This document shows positions 32,343 to 42,180 of a DNA stretch of 64,000 nucleotides, one piece after another; the stretch's first letter is position 1; each line of letters opens with the position of its first letter. Under the pieces are notes generated by a model. It had not been told where the DNA came from. It was given only the letters and a program-made list of their open reading frames with translations, and made no database searches. The DNA is from Sandaracinus amylolyticus (lineage in GTDB: Bacteria > Myxococcota_A > Polyangia > Polyangiales > Sandaracinaceae), in assembly GCF_021631985.1 (NCBI RefSeq), contig NZ_CP070225.1:7688001-7752000 (forward strand), written 5' to 3'. The position numbers were made by a program, and so were the translations under genes.

Positions 32343-33308
32343 CTAACGCATGGGGTGATCGGCGAAGAAGCGCCAGATCGCCTCGCTCGCATGGAACGTC
32401 GTGCTCTGCGCGCCGTCGCCCGGGCACTCGACGACGTCGGGGGCCGGCGCGCCGCCGGGCCAGCTGTGGCCGCCGCCTTCGATGGTACACAGCGCGACCT
32501 CGGCGCCGGTGCAGTCGGCGCTGCGCTCGCAGTGGCCGTCGCCCTCCTCGAAGAAGCGAGTGAGCGACGCGCCGCATCCGTCGCGCGACTGCCAGCGCGC
32601 GATCGTCTCGGGCACCGAGGTGAAGGGCACGCCCGCGGGCCCGCAGCCCATGCCGCCGTCCCACGGCACGTGCCCGTCGGCGCTGCCGTGCACCTGCATC
32701 ACCGCGACCGGTCGCGAGGGCGTGCACGCGGTCGTCATGTCGGTGCCGGCGACCGGCGCGATCGCGGCGAGGCGATCCGCGAGCTCGCACGCGAGGCGAT
32801 GCGACATGATCCCGCCGTTCGACATGCCCGTCGCGTAGACGCGCGCCGGGTCCACGCAGAGCGAGCCCTCGAGGTGATCGAGCAGCGCCGCGAAGAAGCC
32901 CACGTCGTCGACGCTCTCGCTCACCGCGCTGCCGCAGCAGCCGCCGCCGTTCCAGGTGCGGATGCGACCGGTGCCGTCGGGATACACCGCGATGAAGCCC
33001 TCGCGATCGGCGATCGCGCTCATGCCCGAGCCGTTCTCGATCTGGCGCCCGCTGCCCCCGCCGCCATGCAGCACCAGCACGAGCGGGAGCGGTGCCGTGC
33101 CGTCGTGCGCAGCGGGCACGTGCACGCGGAAGGCGCGCGTGATGCCGTCGTGCATCAGCGAGCCCTCGGTCGTCGCGTTCGATGGATAGAGCCCCGTGCC
33201 GCATGCGGTCGTCGTCGCGTCGACGGATGGAGCAGCATCGGCCTCATGACTCTCGGTCGAGCATGCTGCGGCGAGGAGCACGAAGAGCGCGCGGGTGGTG
33301 ACGTTCAT
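32343..33308 (-). CDS. PHB-depolymerase/LpqC-like esterase lipoprotein
   Basis: A 321-residue exported protein with a short lipobox-type signal peptide ([10 protein letters not shown]). [20 protein letters not shown] and [11 protein letters not shown] lead to the nucleophile elbow [17 protein letters not shown] (Ser in GMSNGG). [20 protein letters not shown] holds the Asp region, and [12 protein letters not shown] has the His. This is the LpqC / polyhydroxybutyrate depolymerase-type esterase arrangement, also found in feruloyl and acetylxylan esterases. Substrate is unknown. It is divergent from the barrel gene, 57 bp apart. Confidence 0.88.
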
Positions 33309-33365: not shown

Positions 33366-34049
33366 ATGGACGGATCCCGGATCTCGAAGTCGGCCGCGCT
33401 GTTCGCGATGATTTTCGCCGCGATGCCAGAGCGCGCCGCGGCGCAGTACGAGGAGTACGACACGATGGCGCCGCGCATCTACGCGCTGGGCCAGGTCGCG
33501 TTCATCGGCGACCTCCACGTCCAGGTCGAAGACGGCGACGAGGCCACCGACGGCATGCAGGTCTCGGGCGGCGGCGCGCTCGGCTTCGAGCTGCCGGTGG
33601 TCGAGCTCTTCTCGATCGGCGGCGAGATCTCGGCGCTGGTGTGGAACAACGACGACGCGGCGGATCAGGAGATCGGACCGAACGTGCTCGGTGAGCTCTC
33701 GGTGGTGCCCCGCTTCCGCATTCCGTGGGCGAGCTCGAGCCGCGGGGGCGCCCACGGCGCGTTCACGCTCGGCGGGGTCTTCGGCCTGACGCTCAACTTC
33801 CCGAACGAAGAGTGGTCGGACGCGGTCGGCGCGCTCGGCGGTGATCTCGACATCGGCGTCGGCGCGCACGCCGGCGGACTCGTCGGCGCGCAGTTCTTCT
33901 TCACCCACAGCTTCGGCGTGATCGTCGAGGGCGGCTACGTGCACCACTTCGCGTGGCACCGCTTGTCGTTCCCGGTCATCGGCGAGCGCGAGCTCGCGCT
34001 CGACTTCGGTCAGATCACGATCCGCGCCGGTCTCGCGCTCGCGTTCTGA
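33366..34049 (+). CDS. outer-membrane beta-barrel protein
   Basis: A 227-residue protein with a signal peptide ending ERAAAQ (about residue 26). Alternating strands follow (FIGDLHVQVED, ELFSIGGEISALVWN, VVPRFRIPW, AHGAFTLGGVFGLTLNF, QFFFTHSFGVIVEGGYVHHF), and the last strand ends in Phe (ITIRAGLALAF), the usual signature of an outer-membrane barrel assembled by Bam. Eight strands are plausible. It converges with the PD40 lipoprotein gene across the inverted repeat at 34061-34231. Confidence 0.8.
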   Translation: MDGSRISKSAALFAMIFAAMPERAAAQYEEYDTMAPRIYALGQVAFIGDLHVQVEDGDEATDGMQVSGGGALGFELPVVELFSIGGEISALVWNNDDAADQEIGPNVLGELSVVPRFRIPWASSSRGGAHGAFTLGGVFGLTLNFPNEEWSDAVGALGGDLDIGVGAHAGGLVGAQFFFTHSFGVIVEGGYVHHFAWHRLSFPVIGERELALDFGQITIRAGLALAF

Positions 34050-34241: not shown

Positions 34242-36131
34242 TCAGATCAGCGGGGGGACCGAATAACAGCGCCCGTCGACGCAGAACTCACCACCACAGT
34301 CGGTGTCGTCGTCACACGTCAATCGCTCGACGGTCGTGACCCATTGACCGATGTGATTGGCACTCTCGAGGTCCTGGAAGGGCAGTCGGAACGCGGGATA
34401 CGAGCCGTCGCGCCCTTCCGCCTGGGCCTCGGGATCGAACGCCGCCATCCACAGCTGCGAGCGCGCGTTCTCCTCGAGACGCAGCCCGAACGCGCGGCGG
34501 CTCGTCCACGTGAGCCAGAAGAGCGGCCGACCACGATCGCGATAGCGGATCGGATCCCACTTCGCCCACGAGTCCGCGAGACCGGCCAAGCGCGACAGAC
34601 GCATCGCCGTGCCGGTGCCGCTGCTGGGCACGATCCACAACGTCGCGTCGAGCGTCGGCGAGGGATTCATCGCGTCTCCCATGCCCGCAGAGTTGCTGTT
34701 CGACTCCGAGCGATTGAAGACGATCCACTCGCCGTCGGGCGAATAGGCAGGGTAGTAGTTGTTCCCGCCGCCCGCGACGAGCGTCGGTCCCACCGTCCAG
34801 CCGCTGCCGCTGCGATCGAGCCGCACGATCTCGCCGCTGGTCACGCCGTTCACGTCGACCAGCGCGAACCCCGGGATCGACGGCGGCGCGGGATAGCGCA
34901 CGAACGCGATGTGGTTCCCGTCGGGCGACCAGTCGGGCATCGATGCTGCGCCGCCGCCGAGCTCCTCCGCGATCACGTCGCCGGTGGTGCCGTCGAGGAT
35001 GCCGAGGCCCGCGATCGCGCTCGTGGCGATCTGGAGGTGATCGGGGGAGAACGACGCGAAGTTGGGCTGCGACGGCATCACGCCCAGGCCGCCGCCCGCG
35101 CCGCGCGAGAAGATGCGATTGCGGGTCGCGACGTCGAACACCTGGAGCGTCGTGGTCGGCATGTCGGTGCCCACCGCGATGCGCTGACCGTCGCGCGACA
35201 CGGTGTGGCAGCCCACGCAGAACGTCGCCTCGGTGCGCTGGCGATCGATGAAGGGCTCCGCCTGCGCGCCGCGCACGCCGAACTCGAAACGATCGACGCG
35301 CCCCGCGCCCGCGTTCCAGTAGTAGATGCCGCCGGTGATCGGCTCTTCGGAGACGGTGATCGTGCGCTCCGCGGTCTCGCCGAGCCGACCCGCGTCGTCC
35401 ACGCCGCGCAGGCGATAGGTGATCGGGCCCTGCCCTGCGGCCGCGGTCGCGATCGACTCCCACACGTCGCGATCGGGCGTGTAGATGCATCCATCACCGA
35501 CGCTCTCCGGGCACCCGAAGTAGACGCGCAGATCGAGCACGCCCGCCTGCACGTGCAGCTCGAAGAGCGTCGAGCCCGCGGTGCGGTAGTGGAACTCGAG
35601 CTCGCCGAGGTTCGACGGAACCATCGTCGCGTCGTCGGGATAGACGAGCTCGGGCGCGCGCGAGGGATCGGCGGTGCCGCCGAAGCGCGTGGGCGCGTCG
35701 GCGGGCGTGCCCTCGGTGATCACGATGCGCTCGAGCGAGATCGTCAGCGACGTGAGCGCCTCGATCGAGCCCATCGTCGCGCGGATGTCGGTGCGCCCGC
35801 CGCGGTCGCGCATCGACGTGAATCGCGCGCCCGAGAAGCTGCCGAGCGTGGGCACCGTCGCGAGCCACGTGACCTCGCTCGTGACCTCGCGCTCGGTGCC
35901 GTCGGTCTCCCGGAGGAACGCACGGTAGTCGACGTTCGCCGACGCGCCGCTGGTGATCGCGACCCGATGATCCGCGGGCTCGATGCGCAGCGGGCTGTTC
36001 GTCACCGCGGCGTCGCGAGGGCCGCCGTCTCCGCCTCCGCCCGGCGGGCGTGTGCCGCCCTCGGTGCACCCCGAGAAGCCGAACGCCATCGCGAGCGCCG
36101 CGACGCAGAAGGAAGTCGCACGAGACTGCAT
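34242..36131 (-). CDS. PD40 propeller lipoprotein with CxxCH haem motif (copy 1)
   Basis: A 629-residue lipoprotein (lipobox GFSGC, Gly/Asp-rich linker). It has a head domain of about 250 residues, then TolB-type PD40 repeats such as FASFSPDHLQIA, MPDWSPDGNHIAFVRY and YYPAYSPDGEWIVFN. CVGCH at about residue 305 (bases 35205-35219), just before SRDGQRIAVG, is a CxxCH haem c attachment motif inside the propeller. The C-terminus CDDDTDCGGEFCVDGRC is a small Cys-knot. Start ATG 36131 follows GAGGTG. Homologous to the next minus-strand gene upstream (36806-38377). Confidence 0.8.
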   Translation of the reverse strand: MQSRATSFCVAALAMAFGFSGCTEGGTRPPGGGGDGGPRDAAVTNSPLRIEPADHRVAITSGASANVDYRAFLRETDGTEREVTSEVTWLATVPTLGSFSGARFTSMRDRGGRTDIRATMGSIEALTSLTISLERIVITEGTPADAPTRFGGTADPSRAPELVYPDDATMVPSNLGELEFHYRTAGSTLFELHVQAGVLDLRVYFGCPESVGDGCIYTPDRDVWESIATAAAGQGPITYRLRGVDDAGRLGETAERTITVSEEPITGGIYYWNAGAGRVDRFEFGVRGAQAEPFIDRQRTEATFCVGCHTVSRDGQRIAVGTDMPTTTLQVFDVATRNRIFSRGAGGGLGVMPSQPNFASFSPDHLQIATSAIAGLGILDGTTGDVIAEELGGGAASMPDWSPDGNHIAFVRYPAPPSIPGFALVDVNGVTSGEIVRLDRSGSGWTVGPTLVAGGGNNYYPAYSPDGEWIVFNRSESNSNSAGMGDAMNPSPTLDATLWIVPSSGTGTAMRLSRLAGLADSWAKWDPIRYRDRGRPLFWLTWTSRRAFGLRLEENARSQLWMAAFDPEAQAEGRDGSYPAFRLPFQDLESANHIGQWVTTVERLTCDDDTDCGGEFCVDGRCYSVPPLI

Positions 36132-36805
36132 GGACACCTCGAACGCGAGAAAGCACGACCCAGCCCGCGCGAGCTCCCGACGCGCGAGCGACCCCAATCC
36201 TTCGGCGACGCTATCAAACGCATCGAGGCGCGCTCGGCGCACACCGTGCGGTCCTTCACACGCGGCCGATCCGGACGGCGCCCCGGCCGATCGAGACATG
36301 GTTGCAGACGCAACCGTCACGGTTGCGTACGCAACCGTGCGCGCGTCACGAGACGAGCTCGATCAACACCGGTCGCCCCGTCGTCGAGGACGACGAGATC
36401 GGCGCGAGCATCACGAGCTCCGAGCTCGACGCGAGCCCCACCCTCTTGCGACGATCGCGCTGCTCCACGAAGACGCGAGTCCTCGCGCGAAGCGCGCACA
36501 CGCGCGCAGCGCGGTGCTACGCGCGAGCGTCCGAGGCGCGCGAACAGCGCGACTCGGTCGCGAGCCACCTCACCCCATCCAAGCGAGACGGCAGAACCGC
36601 GGTACCGGGCGCGTGGTGGAGGGTCCGGCGGGCCCACGCAGCGACGCTCGCAGACACCTCGTCGAGACTGTCCAGGTCGCTTCGCGGCACAGCACGAAGT
36701 GCGCGCCGCGAACGACCCTCCGCCTCCCGACGCTCACTGCCTCGTGAACGGCAATCGCGAGTACCGGCCCGCCGGACCCTCCGCCACGCGCCGCTCGCCG
36801 AGGCG
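36132..36805. other. 674-bp gap between the two PD40 lipoprotein genes
   Basis: Open frames here (for example 36317-36637 minus) give Arg-rich, motif-free translations and I do not regard them as genes. The only clear signal is the pair of GGTTGC/GCAACC inverted repeats at 36300-36336. The region should hold the promoter for the minus-strand gene at 36131. Confidence 0.5.
36300..36336. promoter_or_regulatory. tandem GGTTGC-GCAACC palindromes
   Basis: GGTTGC-AGAC-GCAACC (36300-36315) is followed 5 bp later by the perfect 16-bp palindrome GGTTGCGTACGCAACC (36321-36336). Centre-to-centre distance is 21 bp, or two helical turns, as for cooperative operator pairs. They lie 169 bp upstream of the ATG at 36131. 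A repressor or activator site is inferred; no regulator gene is adjacent. Confidence 0.55.
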
Positions 36806-38377
36806 CTAGATGATCTCCGGCACGCAGATCCCCCCCGTGCACATCTCGCCCCGCCGGCAGTCGCCGTCGTCGTCGCAGGGCATGCGCTCCACGCGGGTCG
36901 TCCACTGCGGGATGAAGTTCGAGCCGGTCGTCGGCTGGAACGGCAGGCGGAACGCGGGGAACGAGGGATCGCCGTCCTCCGCGCCGGGATCGAACGCCGC
37001 CATCCAGATCGTGCGGCGACGATCGCCGGGCTCGACGCCGAACGGCATGTTGCTGGTGAACGTGACCCAGAAGAGCCGGCGGCCGTGATGCAGGAAGATC
37101 GACGGGTTCCACCGCGGCATCGAGTCGAGCGACCCGCTCGAGACGCGCACGAGCTGCTGCTCGATCGCATCGCCGTCGCGGCGCACGACGTACACGTGCG
37201 ACTCGATCCCGCCCGGCAGGTGGCTCGGGGTCACGCGCGAGAACGCGATCCACTCCGAGTCCGGCGCGAACGATCCGAACTCGTCGCGCGCACCGGTGCG
37301 TGCGAGCGGCGCGGTGCGCGTCGTCCACACGCCCGCGTCGTCGCGCTCGGTGATCCGCAGCGCCTCGGCAGGATCGGTGAACACGATCGCGCGCCCGTCG
37401 GGCGACCAGTCGGGCGCTGCGCCTTCACCGAGCACCAGCGGCTCACCGGTGCCATCGACGCGCACGATCTGCAGCGGGCGCACGTCGGAGCCCGGGATGC
37501 CACCGGTGACGAGCTCGGTGCCGTCGGGCGAGAACGACGACATCTCCGCGGCGAGCTGCCGCGACTCGGCACGCGTCGCGACGTCGATCAGCGCGATCGG
37601 CCCGGTTGTGCCGTAGCCGATCGCGATCGTCTCGCCGTCGCGCGAGAGCGCGTGGCAGCCGACGCAGTGACCGCCCGAGTCGCCCGAGTCGAAGAAGAGC
37701 TCCGACGTGCGGTGGCCGCGATCGAAGTCGTATCGATGGATCGCCGCAGGATCGGTCGACCAGAAGTAGAGCCCGCCGGTCACCGGCTCGGTCGCGAGCT
37801 CGATCGTGATCGGCTCGGACTCGCCGATGTTCGTGCCCTCCGCGCCGATGCCGCGCACCTGCACCTCGTAGGTGCCGCGCGCGCGATCGTCGGCGAGCAC
37901 CTCCCACATCAGATCGCCGAGCTCGAGCGCGCATCCTTCACCGCGCACGGTGCACGGCGCGTAGACCTGGAGGACGGTGTCCTCGCCCTGATCGAAGCGC
38001 AGCTCGAAGAGCGTGTGCCCGTTGGGCTCCCAGTGGATCTCGAGGCCGCTGAGGTTCGGCGGCAGCATCGTGCCGTCGACCGGATAACGCACCACCGGGA
38101 GCTGCGCGGTGCGCCCGTCTCCTCCGAACCGATCGGGCGCGTCGCTCGGCGCGCCCGAGGCGATGAAGACCACGGGCTCGCGTGGCACCGGCGCATCGAG
38201 CGCGGCGTCCGAGCCGGCGTCGACGACGACGGTGTTCGCGTCGATGTCGAAGATGCTCGGGCCCGAGTCGGCACCGTCGCCTGGAGAGCGCTCGGTGCAC
38301 GCGGTGACGAGCCCCATGGCCGGGGCGAGGAGCGCGAGGAGGATCGCGACGCGGTCGCGAGACGGGCTCGTGGTCAC
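36806..38377 (-). CDS. PD40 propeller lipoprotein with CxxCH haem motif (copy 2)
   Basis: A 523-residue lipoprotein from GTG 38377 (lipobox LVTAC, linker rich in D and A). Head domain to about residue 225, CVGCH at residues 238-242 (bases 37652-37666) followed by SRDGETIAIG, then PD40 repeats such as AAEMSSFSPDGTELV and APDWSPDGRAIVFTD. The final segment CDDDGDCRRGEMCTGGIC is again Cys-rich. The shared motif FRLPFQ.T..SN.I.QW.T.VER in both genes shows recent common origin. The haem motif predicts a covalently bound haem c if the Ccm system is present. Confidence 0.8.
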   Translation of the reverse strand: MTTSPSRDRVAILLALLAPAMGLVTACTERSPGDGADSGPSIFDIDANTVVVDAGSDAALDAPVPREPVVFIASGAPSDAPDRFGGDGRTAQLPVVRYPVDGTMLPPNLSGLEIHWEPNGHTLFELRFDQGEDTVLQVYAPCTVRGEGCALELGDLMWEVLADDRARGTYEVQVRGIGAEGTNIGESEPITIELATEPVTGGLYFWSTDPAAIHRYDFDRGHRTSELFFDSGDSGGHCVGCHALSRDGETIAIGYGTTGPIALIDVATRAESRQLAAEMSSFSPDGTELVTGGIPGSDVRPLQIVRVDGTGEPLVLGEGAAPDWSPDGRAIVFTDPAEALRITERDDAGVWTTRTAPLARTGARDEFGSFAPDSEWIAFSRVTPSHLPGGIESHVYVVRRDGDAIEQQLVRVSSGSLDSMPRWNPSIFLHHGRRLFWVTFTSNMPFGVEPGDRRRTIWMAAFDPGAEDGDPSFPAFRLPFQPTTGSNFIPQWTTRVERMPCDDDGDCRRGEMCTGGICVPEII

Positions 38378-38434
38378 GAGATCGGTATTGGCCGAACGCA
38401 GGTCCGCCCGTCACGAGCGCGATGGTCTTTCCGT

Positions 38435-38446
38435 ATACCGCGGTAT
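38435..38446. promoter_or_regulatory. 12-bp perfect palindrome in a divergent gap
   Basis: ATACCGCGGTAT lies between the start of the PD40 lipoprotein (38377) and the membrane protein start (38475). The location between divergent genes makes it a candidate operator for one or both. A match of this length could also occur by chance, so this is tentative. Confidence 0.35.
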
Positions 38447-38474
38447 TCGCGTGCTACATGGCTGCGCGGTGTCG

Positions 38475-39227
38475 ATGCTGCTCCTCGCGAAGCTCACGAT
38501 CGCGCCCGCGTTCGTCGCCGCGGTGAGCTTGATCGGGCGGCGTTTCGGCCCGGCGGTCGCGGGGTTCCTCGCGGCGCTGCCGGTGGTCGGCGGTCCGATC
38601 CTCGCGCTGCTGATCGCCGAGCAGGGCCTCGAGTTCGGCGCCCGCGCTGCGTTCGCCTGCGCGATCGGCGCCGCGCCCACGATGATCTTCGCGCTCGCGT
38701 ACTCGCTCGTCGCGCCGCGCGTGCGCTGGGGACGGGCGATCACGCTCGGCTACGCCACGTACTTCGTCGCGGCCGCGGTGCTGCTCGCCGTACCGCCGTC
38801 GCTCACGACCGCGACGATCGTGCCGCTCGCGACGTGGTGGCTCGTGCTCCGGGTGTTCCCGCGTGCGAGCGCCGAGGCATTCCCGCGCGCCCCGTCGCGC
38901 TGGGATCTCCCGGTGCGCATCGTCGCGACGATGACGCTCGTGCTGCTGATCACGACGCTCGCGAGCGTGATCGGCCCCGAGCGCAGCGGGCTCTTCACAC
39001 CGTTCCCGATCGCGACCGCGGTGCTCGCGGTGTTCGCCCACCGCGACGCGGGCGGCGCGTCGGCGTCGGTGCTCCTGCGCGCGCTGGTCCGCGGTCTCGT
39101 CAGCTTCGTCGCGTTCTTCGTCGTGGTGGGCGCGACGCTCGACGCGGTGGGCGCGATCGCGAGCTTCGTGACGGGCGGCCTCGTCGCGCTCGGCGTGCAC
39201 GCGATCGTGTCGAAGCTCGCGCGCTGA
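38475..39227 (+). CDS. polytopic inner-membrane protein, unknown
   Basis: A 250-residue protein with about eight hydrophobic segments: LTIAPAFVAAVSLIG, FLAALPVVGGPILALLIAEQG, FACAIGAAPTMIFALAYSLV, ITLGYATYFVAAAVLL, IVPLATWWLVLRV, ATMTLVLLITTLASVIG, PIATAVLAVF and VSFVAFFVVVGATL. Charged loops separate them. I do not recognise a transporter family. ATG 38475 is preferred; GTG 38469 is 6 bp upstream. Its stop is directly adjacent to the convergent stop of the lipase-like gene (no spacer). Confidence 0.75.
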   Translation: MLLLAKLTIAPAFVAAVSLIGRRFGPAVAGFLAALPVVGGPILALLIAEQGLEFGARAAFACAIGAAPTMIFALAYSLVAPRVRWGRAITLGYATYFVAAAVLLAVPPSLTTATIVPLATWWLVLRVFPRASAEAFPRAPSRWDLPVRIVATMTLVLLITTLASVIGPERSGLFTPFPIATAVLAVFAHRDAGGASASVLLRALVRGLVSFVAFFVVVGATLDAVGAIASFVTGGLVALGVHAIVSKLAR

Positions 39228-40478
39228 TCACTCCGGGACGCACTCGGGGAGCGCTTCGTTCGCGCATGCCGGCGCGGCGTCGCCGCGCAGCGCGGCTTCG
39301 GCGATCGCGATCGCGTGGCCCACGCCGCGCGGGACGATCGACAGGTGATCCGCGTCCATCACGCACACCCGCGGCTCGATCGCGCTCGCGCGCAGGTGGT
39401 CGACGATGCAGCGGGTGCGCGACGGCGTGGTGATGCCGTCGTGATCGCCCTGCAGCACGTGGATCGGCGCGCCCTCGGGATCGCCGCGCATCACGTTGGC
39501 GCGCGACCACTCGAGGATCGCTCGCGCGCGCTCGTCGCACTCACCCGCGTCGGTGCACGCGATCAGCGCGCGGCGCAGCTCGTCGTCGACCAGCTCGCCG
39601 AGCGTCGGCGCGAGGCGCGGGATCGTCGTGAGGAGCGAGCCGACGCAGCCGCGCTCGAGCGCGTGCACCAGGTCGTCGCGGCGCGCGCTCGGAAAGCCCT
39701 CGCCGGCACGCGCTTCACCGTAGGCGCGTGCATGCCACGAATAGAGGAACATCGCGCCGACGACCGCGCTCAGCTCGTCGCCTCCGCGCAGTCGGCGCGC
39801 GGGATCGCGCAGCGTCTCCAGCCGATCGCGCACCGGCCATCCGGGCGCGATCGCGATCACCGCCGCGATCGTCGCGTCGTCGCCGACGTAACGCCGCGCG
39901 ATCGACTGCGCCGAGAGCACCGCGCCGCCGCCCTGGCTGTGCCCCACGAGCACGATCGGTGCGCGCTGTGCGCTGGAGGAAGAGCCCACCAACGTCGCGA
40001 GCGCGCGCGCCGCGTCGAGCACCGAGCGCGCGGTGTCGTCGTTGTCGCCGTAGCCCTGCACGCCCGCGCTGCCGAGACCGGCGTAGTCCGGCGCGATCAC
40101 CGGCCATCCTCGCGCGACGAACGCGCGCACCAGCTCGTCGGGCGGCGCGAGCGAAGGTGCGCACGCATCCGCGAGACCCACCGTGCCGTGCGCCACCACC
40201 ACGTGCGGCGCGCCCTCGAGCGCGCTCGCAGGCATCACCACGCGCGCGGTCGCGATCGCCGCAGCGTCACCCGCGCGTGTGGTGCGGTACGCGATCCTCA
40301 GCCCGTGCACGTCGCGCGCGCACCGCACGATCGTCCCGGGCGTCGACGGCGCGTGTGGGTCGTCCTCGCACGAGATCGCGAGCGCGCGTCGCGAGGGCGC
40401 GATCGGAGGCGCGCTCGCACATCCGCCGAGCGTGAGGAGCAGCGCCAGCGCCGTCGTCGCACCTCGCATCACCGCCAT
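39228..40478 (-). CDS. secretory-lipase-like alpha/beta hydrolase lipoprotein
   Basis: A 416-residue lipoprotein (LTLGGC, start at 40478 or 40469). VVVAHGTVGLADACAPS, then WPVIAPDYAGLGSAG, and the elbow VLVGHSQGGGAVLSAQ (Ser in GHSQGG) fit LIP-type secreted lipases. HVLQGDHDGITTPSRTRC holds the acidic residue and MDADHLSIV the catalytic His. Extra Cys pairs suggest disulfides. The two genes 39227/39228 are convergent with zero spacing, which leaves no room for a separate terminator. It is divergent from the kinase at 40525 by 46 bp. Confidence 0.85.
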   Translation of the reverse strand: MAVMRGATTALALLLTLGGCASAPPIAPSRRALAISCEDDPHAPSTPGTIVRCARDVHGLRIAYRTTRAGDAAAIATARVVMPASALEGAPHVVVAHGTVGLADACAPSLAPPDELVRAFVARGWPVIAPDYAGLGSAGVQGYGDNDDTARSVLDAARALATLVGSSSSAQRAPIVLVGHSQGGGAVLSAQSIARRYVGDDATIAAVIAIAPGWPVRDRLETLRDPARRLRGGDELSAVVGAMFLYSWHARAYGEARAGEGFPSARRDDLVHALERGCVGSLLTTIPRLAPTLGELVDDELRRALIACTDAGECDERARAILEWSRANVMRGDPEGAPIHVLQGDHDGITTPSRTRCIVDHLRASAIEPRVCVMDADHLSIVPRGVGHAIAIAEAALRGDAAPACANEALPECVPE

Positions 40479-40524
40479 CGTACTCGGAGCCCATCTGCAC
40501 GGACGGATCGATCGCGCGAGCCGG

Positions 40525-42180
40525 ATGGAGCATGCTCCGACTGTCGTGACGTCACGGGGCACCCACGGGAGCACCAGCACCGGCGGCTCCAGCACCGGCG
40601 ACGTGCATGGTGCGGTCACGACGTGGGAGCACCTCGGCAATCTCCGTCGCGCGAAGGCGCCGCTCCTCTTCGGGCTCTTCGTGTGGCCGCTCTTCGCGCT
40701 GATGGACGTCGCGTTCATCGCGACCGGCGGCGACGGCGACGTCGCGACGCTGGTCGCGCTCCGCGCGCTCCCGCTGCCGTGGTTCGCGATCACGACGATG
40801 CGGGTCTCGCGTCGCCCGCCGATCACGCGCCGCGAGTTCTACTTCCTCGTCTACGGCGCCATCTACGTGATGATGGGCGCGATCACGCTGCAGTCCGCGA
40901 TGACCGGCGGCTTCCGCAGCCTCTACGCGGAGGCCGGCCTCGCGGTGCTCGCCGCGACCACCGTCGTCCCACGTCCGTGGCGCGAGCACGCCGCGCCGAT
41001 GTCGGGCGCGGCGCTCGTCTATCCGATCGGCATGCTCGTCGGCGAGATGTTCTTCCCGCGCATGCAGGGTCAGATCGCGGACCCGCAGGCCGTGAACTCG
41101 CTCGGCGTGCACGTCGTGATGCTGTGGACGACCGCGCTGATCGTCGTCATCGCGTCGCATCGCCTGTGGTCGCTGCGCAAAGAGGTCTACGAGGCGCGCA
41201 GCATCGGCAAGTACGAGCTGCGCCGGCGCATCGGCAAGGGCGGCATGGGCGAGGTGTGGGCCGCGTGGCACCGCGGGCTCGAGCGCGAGGTCGCGCTGAA
41301 GATCCTCAAGATGGTCGAGGAGGACGAAGAGGGCGCGATGCTGCGCTTCGAGCGCGAGGTGCGCCTCTCGTCCGGGCTCACGCACCCGCACACCGTGCGC
41401 GTGTTCGACTACGGCACGACCGAGGACGGGCTCCTCTACTACGCGATGGAGCTGCTGAGCGGCGTGAGCCTCGCCGAGCTCGTGAAGCGCGACGGCGCGC
41501 TGCCCGCGCCGCGCGCGGTGCACCTCGTGACGCAGGCCGCGCGCGCGCTCGCGGAGGCGCACGATCGCGGGATCGTCCATCGCGACGTGAAGCCCGAGAA
41601 CCTCTTCGTCACCGCCGCGGGCGGCGAGAACGACTTCGTGAAGGTGCTCGACTTCGGCATCGCGCGGATCGAGGCCGACGGAGGACAGCTCACGCGCACC
41701 GGCGCCGTCGCGGGCACTCCGTCGACGATGAGCCCCGAGGTGATCACCGGCGATCGCGCCACGTCGGCGAGCGACGTCTACGGGCTCGGCGCGGTGCTCT
41801 ACTACGCGCTCACCGGTCGTCCGCCGTTCGTGGGCGAGGTCGCGGCGAGCACGTTGATCGCGCACCTGCACGAGCCCGTCGTGCCGCCGAGCACGCGCTC
41901 TCCGCACGAGGTGCCGGGCGACGTCGAGACGATCGTCCTGCGCTGCCTCGAGAAGAAGCCCTCCGATCGATTCCCCGACGGTCGCGCGCTCGCCGAGGCG
42001 CTCGCGAAGTGCAGCGTCGCCGGCGTCTGGGTGCCGGCGCCCGCACCTCCTTCGATCGCGCCGCCGCCGCCGAGCAGCCCTTCGATCGCGCAGCTCGCGA
42101 CGACGCAGGACGCGCTCGACCTGCCGTCGAGCGTCAACGAGCAGCCGACGTCGATCGCGGTCCCGCGACGCAGCGGATGA
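40525..42180 (+). CDS. membrane-sensor Ser/Thr protein kinase
   Basis: A 551-residue protein. Residues 1-30 are Ser/Thr/Gly-rich. Residues 40-215 form about six membrane segments (PLLFGLFVWPLFALMDVAFI, FYFLVYGAIYVMMGAITL and others). The kinase domain is about 228-490: GKGGMGEV, VALKIL, HRDVKPEN, DFGIARI and GTPSTMSPE in place of the usual GTPxYMAPE. The C-terminal tail is Pro-rich. The membrane domain is N-terminal, unlike the usual PknB arrangement, and may act as a sensor. Its gene is 46 bp from the divergent lipase-like gene. Confidence 0.9.
   Translation: MEHAPTVVTSRGTHGSTSTGGSSTGDVHGAVTTWEHLGNLRRAKAPLLFGLFVWPLFALMDVAFIATGGDGDVATLVALRALPLPWFAITTMRVSRRPPITRREFYFLVYGAIYVMMGAITLQSAMTGGFRSLYAEAGLAVLAATTVVPRPWREHAAPMSGAALVYPIGMLVGEMFFPRMQGQIADPQAVNSLGVHVVMLWTTALIVVIASHRLWSLRKEVYEARSIGKYELRRRIGKGGMGEVWAAWHRGLEREVALKILKMVEEDEEGAMLRFEREVRLSSGLTHPHTVRVFDYGTTEDGLLYYAMELLSGVSLAELVKRDGALPAPRAVHLVTQAARALAEAHDRGIVHRDVKPENLFVTAAGGENDFVKVLDFGIARIEADGGQLTRTGAVAGTPSTMSPEVITGDRATSASDVYGLGAVLYYALTGRPPFVGEVAASTLIAHLHEPVVPPSTRSPHEVPGDVETIVLRCLEKKPSDRFPDGRALAEALAKCSVAGVWVPAPAPPSIAPPPPSSPSIAQLATTQDALDLPSSVNEQPTSIAVPRRSG

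Follow-up and report, generated by a model that had tools for sequence, protein, structure and literature searches.

Two TolB-like propeller lipoproteins of Sandaracinus amylolyticus with a conserved CxxCH motif as candidate haem c proteins

TolB, of the Tol-Pal system, is an envelope protein with a propeller of PD40 repeats. A propeller of this kind is predicted here for the products of two adjacent genes of Sandaracinus amylolyticus, A and B, each of which carries the sequence CVGCH, a CxxCH motif of the type to which haem c is attached. Both genes lie on the minus strand of the 64,000-nucleotide stretch of DNA that was analysed (the window; contig NZ_CP070225.1, positions 7,688,001 to 7,752,000), A at 34242–36131 (629 amino acids) and B at 36806–38377 (523 amino acids), with an intergenic gap of 674 bases. 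TolB is the best solved match, but A and B differ from it in being putative lipoproteins with different N-terminal domains, a CxxCH in blade 1, and a cysteine-containing tail, and they score just 18.8 and 23.7 bits against TIGR02800, for which the cut-off is 343.15 bits. Further points of comparison are the alpha subunit of hydrazine synthase, for which Pfam includes a model, and TfcP of Myxococcus xanthus, which is not known to have a propeller. The hydrazine synthase family is not among the Pfam matches of A or B up to an expect value (E) of 1. The alpha subunit of this anammox enzyme is reported to join a six-blade propeller and haem c in one polypeptide, as we propose for A and B, but its haems lie in middle and C-terminal domains of their own, whereas the motif of A and B lies within the propeller (PMC12758564). 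TfcP is described as a non-canonical cytochrome c that depends on its haem to be stable and that acts in support of PilY1.1, not in electron transport; like A and B it is a myxobacterial envelope protein that carries a CxxCH and for which a non-respiratory role is proposed, and unlike them it is a small cytochrome c with a cysteine as sixth ligand (PMC8833165).

We consider it likely that A and B are exported c-type proteins, each with a TolB-like propeller as its framework and a single haem. That their CVGCH is a haem motif had been suggested in an earlier note made from the sequence alone, and this suggestion is well supported by the conservation of the motif and by the maturation genes of the organism, from which we infer attachment. 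Relatives were gathered from 140 loci (eight of the source genome found by protein search, two more from that genome, 30 from a profile search, and 100 best-match stretches), a set that leaves out weaker matches and some of those listed and that gave 139 distinct Myxococcota proteins. CxxCH is aligned in 138 of the 139. His309 of A is the only invariant column of the 629 (139/139, and 81/81 in a smaller alignment), and Cys305 and Cys308 are kept in 138 proteins, tied with Pro165 for second place. The pair of residues between the cysteines takes 21 different forms among the same proteins, and the SRDG behind the motif is retained in just 61 of them. Comparing genes rather than columns, 67 of 68 family genes carry CxxCH versus 4 of 569 neighbouring genes outside the family. 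On these alignments, the CxxCH of A and B is not a chance match. Failure of the motif to be conserved in orthologues, which the earlier note had named as evidence against haem, was not found in Myxococcota nor in the Bacteroidota proteins described below. Strong matches to the family (best E <1e-50) occur in 118 of 282 sampled Myxococcota genomes, a count taken by hand with four candidates scored per genome, so members may be missed.

The source genome has ten family members, nine with CxxCH. The sole loss, in the paralogue L013, a tandem neighbour of another member, removes both cysteines and keeps the histidine in a gene that is open and scores well. A 43-row tree places B beside the L012/L013 pair (support 100/99), and thus the lone loss falls in a group that also lacks the candidate ligand residues at positions 398 and 593 considered below. 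The loss is seen in a tandem pair at 324–329 kb of the same genome (L140), which consists of one copy with CVGCH and one without the cysteines but with the histidine, a natural control. In an earlier set of 110 open reading frames, 82 have CxxCH, and the 28 without it are L013, three fragments truncated by the limits of their loci, and 24 PD40 proteins of the generic type with scores below 160. Selenocysteine was considered, as many hits of the profile search were flagged for an internal TGA or TAG, and rejected: in 20 loci that were re-read (19 flagged for TGA or TAG and one not), the stop falls just past the last blade in every case, as expected of a natural gene end, and stops upstream of the start were also seen in some. 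All 20 of these loci have CxxCH, and none has SRDG. One of them (L172) has a further in-frame TAG inside the propeller, perhaps because the copy is broken or the assembly is wrong there.

The two proteins share 36% identity over 515 aligned columns, with CVGCH in register. PD40 is the sole Pfam family above its cut-off in either, and NCBIfam returns TolB-type and lasso-peptidase matches only, all weak and far below cut-off. The AlphaFold2 models of A (mean predicted local distance difference test (pLDDT) 90.0, predicted template modelling score (pTM) 0.88, from an 81-row alignment) and B (pLDDT 87.6, pTM 0.85, from a 43-row alignment) are nearly all beta. In the comparison with solved structures, which covered the model of A, the best match is TolB (2hqs_B; Z 27.1, root-mean-square deviation 3.0, 270 residues aligned, model range 164–601). 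The description of the locus in the earlier note as two adjacent PD40-propeller lipoproteins with CxxCH is thus borne out by the reading frames, the Pfam matches, both models, and the TolB match of A. CVGCH (A, residues 305–309, 35205–35219; B, residues 238–242, 37652–37666) opens a strand (306–311 in A and 239–244 in B) that leads to the SRDG turn, the counterpart of SPDG in PD40. The same note had placed the motif directly before SRDG at matching sites in both proteins; the register does match, but two residues intervene, TV in A and AL in B. With register and blade numbers derived from sequence and secondary structure, we infer that the motif strand would be strand A, the innermost, of the first blade and that residue 398 of A would occupy the place on blade 3 equivalent to Cys308. 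The searches made found no curated family or solved structure with this motif in a propeller. Neither CxxCH in PD40 or TolB-like propellers nor PD40 and CXXCH together was found in the full-text literature, the coverage of which leaves out most subscription papers. These results agree with the earlier view that a haem motif in a TolB-like propeller is unusual, but A and B are not singular, being two of ten paralogues in a phylum-wide family.

A search for haem-maturation genes, proposed along with the haem reading, was carried out with the maturation family PF01578, which occurs three times above cut-off in the source genome and is present in 275 of the 282 sampled Myxococcota genomes. The bacterial synthase CcsBA is reported to need both thiols and the histidine of CXXCH but not the helix behind them (PMC8112865). 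The residues conserved in the family, two cysteines and a histidine, are the set that CcsBA requires. We propose that the cytochrome c maturation machinery would join one haem to both cysteines of CVGCH by thioether bonds, that the adjacent histidine would be the proximal ligand, and that the haem would sit at the mouth of the central channel of the propeller.

In most Myxococcota members, blade 3 has a histidine or methionine on its equivalent strand that could supply the sixth ligand. At this position, Met398 in A (34938–34940), the 139 proteins have 73 histidines, 17 methionines (90 of 139 in all), and six gaps. The residue before PxWSPDG in 92 generic PD40 repeats, retrieved without A's own locus, is histidine in 3 and methionine in 18, the latter number inflated by a retrieval peptide. 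Histidine is in excess in the family (73/133 vs 3/92, Fisher p 3e-18 with kinship ignored). An estimate for this position from named loci (methionine in 47 and histidine in 21 of 81) was discarded because MPDWSPDG was among the peptides used to fetch those loci, and the count was redone on the profile-retrieved set. A second candidate ligand is His593 of A (34353–34355), where 87 of the 139 proteins have histidine and 13 have methionine. The ligand of position 398 is missing from B and from the two paralogues nearest to it, and these three proteins would be five-coordinate or degenerate.

Homologues also occur in Bacteroidota, the phylum of Winogradskyella and Roseithermus. When the motif region was modelled over 90 columns, matches were obtained in 37 of 198 Bacteroidota genomes at E 0.05. 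Among the loci that were read, a part of the matches in these 37 genomes, homologues were confirmed at two places in G455 and at one in G491; six others were rejected as other cytochromes or as lacking a motif-bearing propeller. Searches with one of these proteins and with a second type gave five proteins in four of the 198 genomes (L259/L271, L272, L301, L306, and L307), of which L306 and L307 did not depend on the motif model for their retrieval. All five have CxxCH at the aligned place, with E values against the family profile of 4e-38 to 4e-19, and one Bacteroidota protein aligns over 386 profile positions, including the PPN domain (E 3e-39). They share with A and B the order of a PPN or PPD domain, CxxCH at the first blade, and then the propeller; unlike A and B, some have a tetratricopeptide repeat (TPR) tail (L259 by Pfam, L272 and L301 by alignment to L259), and their candidate histidine lies on blade 5 rather than blade 3. 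This histidine aligns with position 523 of A, which is proline in 116 of the 139 Myxococcota proteins, a hint that it might serve as an alternative ligand. The two Bacteroidota proteins that were scanned have only PD40 and TPR models above cut-off and match only TolB or TPR chains among solved structures, and the libraries searched include no curated family specific to the Bacteroidota proteins. Against 14 genomes of other groups, the 90-column model gave weak matches in ten (best E 0.019); ten alignments read among the matches listed trace to cytochromes of other types, a single generic PD40 protein, and chance similarity. A DNA pattern written for a motif of Bacteroides proteins was found in 0 of 99, and the family was not found in a plasmid collection or in PHROGs.

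Several observations weigh against haem attachment. A haem c motif normally forms a helix or a turn, whereas VGCHTV sits on a beta strand in the AlphaFold2 models, which contain no haem. No cytochrome family matches A or B in Pfam (up to E 1) or NCBIfam, and a class I cytochrome c domain is not recognisable in either protein by the same searches. A universal sixth ligand is, as far as the alignments tell, absent from the family: neither histidine nor methionine is present at 398 and 593 in 22 of the 139 proteins, including B and its nearest paralogues, and none of the five Bacteroidota proteins has either residue at 398. The 139 rows are related, with several paralogues per genome, and so are not independent, and the profile that retrieved many of them was built from eight proteins, seven of which have CxxCH. 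The presence of PF01578 barely discriminates, since 117 of 118 family-positive genomes have it (by hand count, with family-positive defined as best E <1e-50) and so do 158 of 164 genomes without a strong family match; the lone family-positive genome without it, G223, is 76% complete. When PF01578 matches are restricted to E <1e-15, the family is found in 1 of 14 genomes without a match vs 117 of 268 with one (Fisher p 0.0097), an association in which eight of the 14 genomes belong to one genome family (f38) and which supports the haem reading weakly.

The strand placement of the motif, the missing cytochrome domain, and the lack of a universal sixth ligand would all suit a non-haem site instead, with a role as a thiol switch or in stabilising the first blade; it could be a CxxC disulfide or a Cys2-His site for zinc, copper, or iron. 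A disulfide leaves the invariant adjacent histidine unexplained, and for a metal site no further invariant cysteine, histidine, aspartate, or glutamate was identified beside the motif in the sequence. Moreover, an envelope protein with CxxCH in an organism with maturation genes is a likely substrate, as the synthase is reported to recognise little else (PMC8112865). We regard a non-haem site as unlikely. Far less probable still is that the motif is a functionless leftover, arisen by chance or inherited within a clade: the one loss in the source genome is what such a history could produce, but retention in 138 of 139 proteins despite a freely varying spacer pair, and again in Bacteroidota, where overall similarity is weak, already contradicts it.

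If haem is attached, it could serve the folding or stability of a binding scaffold rather than electron transfer, as reported for TfcP in a myxobacterium (PMC8833165). The combination of an Ig-like domain, a propeller, and a cysteine tail resembles such a scaffold, and redox genes do not recur as neighbours. Indeed, no Pfam family is found in more than 4 of 100 flanking proteins (one gene of 120–1300 amino acids on each side of the family genes; of 106 such genes, 100 were scanned once four near-duplicate or cut loci had been removed), where the neighbours were called by a rule based on third-position G+C content that may overlook small genes. Two members in a same-genus genome (L145:3004-16104) stand in a duplicated cluster with proteins containing an IgGFc-binding domain (PF17517) and Rax2/DUF5122 propeller proteins, and a similar layout is seen near 5.54 Mb of the source genome (L141). 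This company adds to the case for a structural haem and fits a role at the cell surface. The paralogue L013 speaks against a structural role, as its preserved gene without either cysteine indicates that the fold can survive without the motif. We view a purely structural haem as a credible possibility, short of an expectation. For the preferred reading of A and B as single-haem c-type proteins, a role in the envelope as an independent redox or ligand-binding protein, not as a member of a respiratory chain, is weakly supported because no redox gene travels with the family genes. The electron-transfer or redox-sensing role put forward in the earlier note would be a candidate, one that neither a recurrent redox neighbour nor a universal sixth ligand backs directly.

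A and B belong to a large, unnamed family of propeller proteins that probably represents an unrecognised kind of haem protein, with haem binding predicted. With ten paralogues in the source genome, a wide distribution in Myxococcota, and some members in Bacteroidota, the family is seen by the libraries searched only as PD40. If haem is attached, these proteins would be cytochromes c in which the haem site is built into the propeller rather than into a cytochrome domain, and the known c-type haem proteins of these bacteria would gain a large number of members. A more speculative proposal, to which we lean less than not, is that they form an ancient class with haem c on the channel-lining strand of blade 1, where it caps or plugs the channel, and with a sixth ligand that may come from a blade 3 histidine or methionine (Myxococcota), come from a blade 5 histidine (Bacteroidota), or be missing, giving members with different redox or gas-binding behaviour. 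The family also offers a ready test of how little maturation systems need beyond CxxCH, for which a paralogue without the cysteines is a natural control.

Both proteins have putative export signals, read by eye from the sequence as a signal peptide followed by a lipobox. The reading frame of A can be extended to a GTG at 36320; the ATG at 36131 appears the better start, giving a signal peptide that ends in GFSGC. The signal peptide, together with Cys22 of what we take from its pattern to be a lipobox, spans 36066–36131, and this cysteine is present in 89% of the 139 relatives. Next in A comes a predicted bacterial Ig-like domain (about residues 44–138, 35718–36002), supported by model strands and by a profile search in which it matches repeats from the solved structure of a teneurin-like protein as well as Ig-like domains of LigA and LigB; B has the architecture of A minus this domain. 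In A, another beta-rich domain, marked by a YP...PSN signature, follows the Ig-like one, according to the model and to conservation (about residues 150–262, 35346–35684), with Tyr164 and Pro165 invariant in all 81 rows of the smaller alignment; its counterpart in B, placed by alignment to A and by the model, is a YP...PPN domain (about residues 84–195, 37793–38128). The propeller itself spans about residues 266–601 of A (34329–35336), from the model and the structure match, and 199–493 of B (36899–37783), from alignment to A and the model. Each protein ends in a tail with four cysteines (A: Cys606, Cys612, Cys617, and Cys622, 34266–34316; B: Cys501, Cys507, Cys513, and Cys518, 36824–36877), in agreement with the cysteine-rich C-termini noticed previously. 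The cysteines of mature A and B are thus the lipid cysteine, one pair, and one set of four, a distribution that counts in favour of haem attachment.

Around the two genes, at 32343–33308, 33366–34049, and 38225–39227, the window encodes a polyhydroxybutyrate (PHB)-depolymerase-type esterase (PF10503) along with two proteins that match nothing in Pfam at E 0.001. Many long antisense or overlapping open reading frames (up to 1136 amino acids) are present between 28000 and 44000, as the high G+C content predicts, and most are probably not genes. A serine/threonine protein kinase (PF00069) is encoded at 40183–42180.

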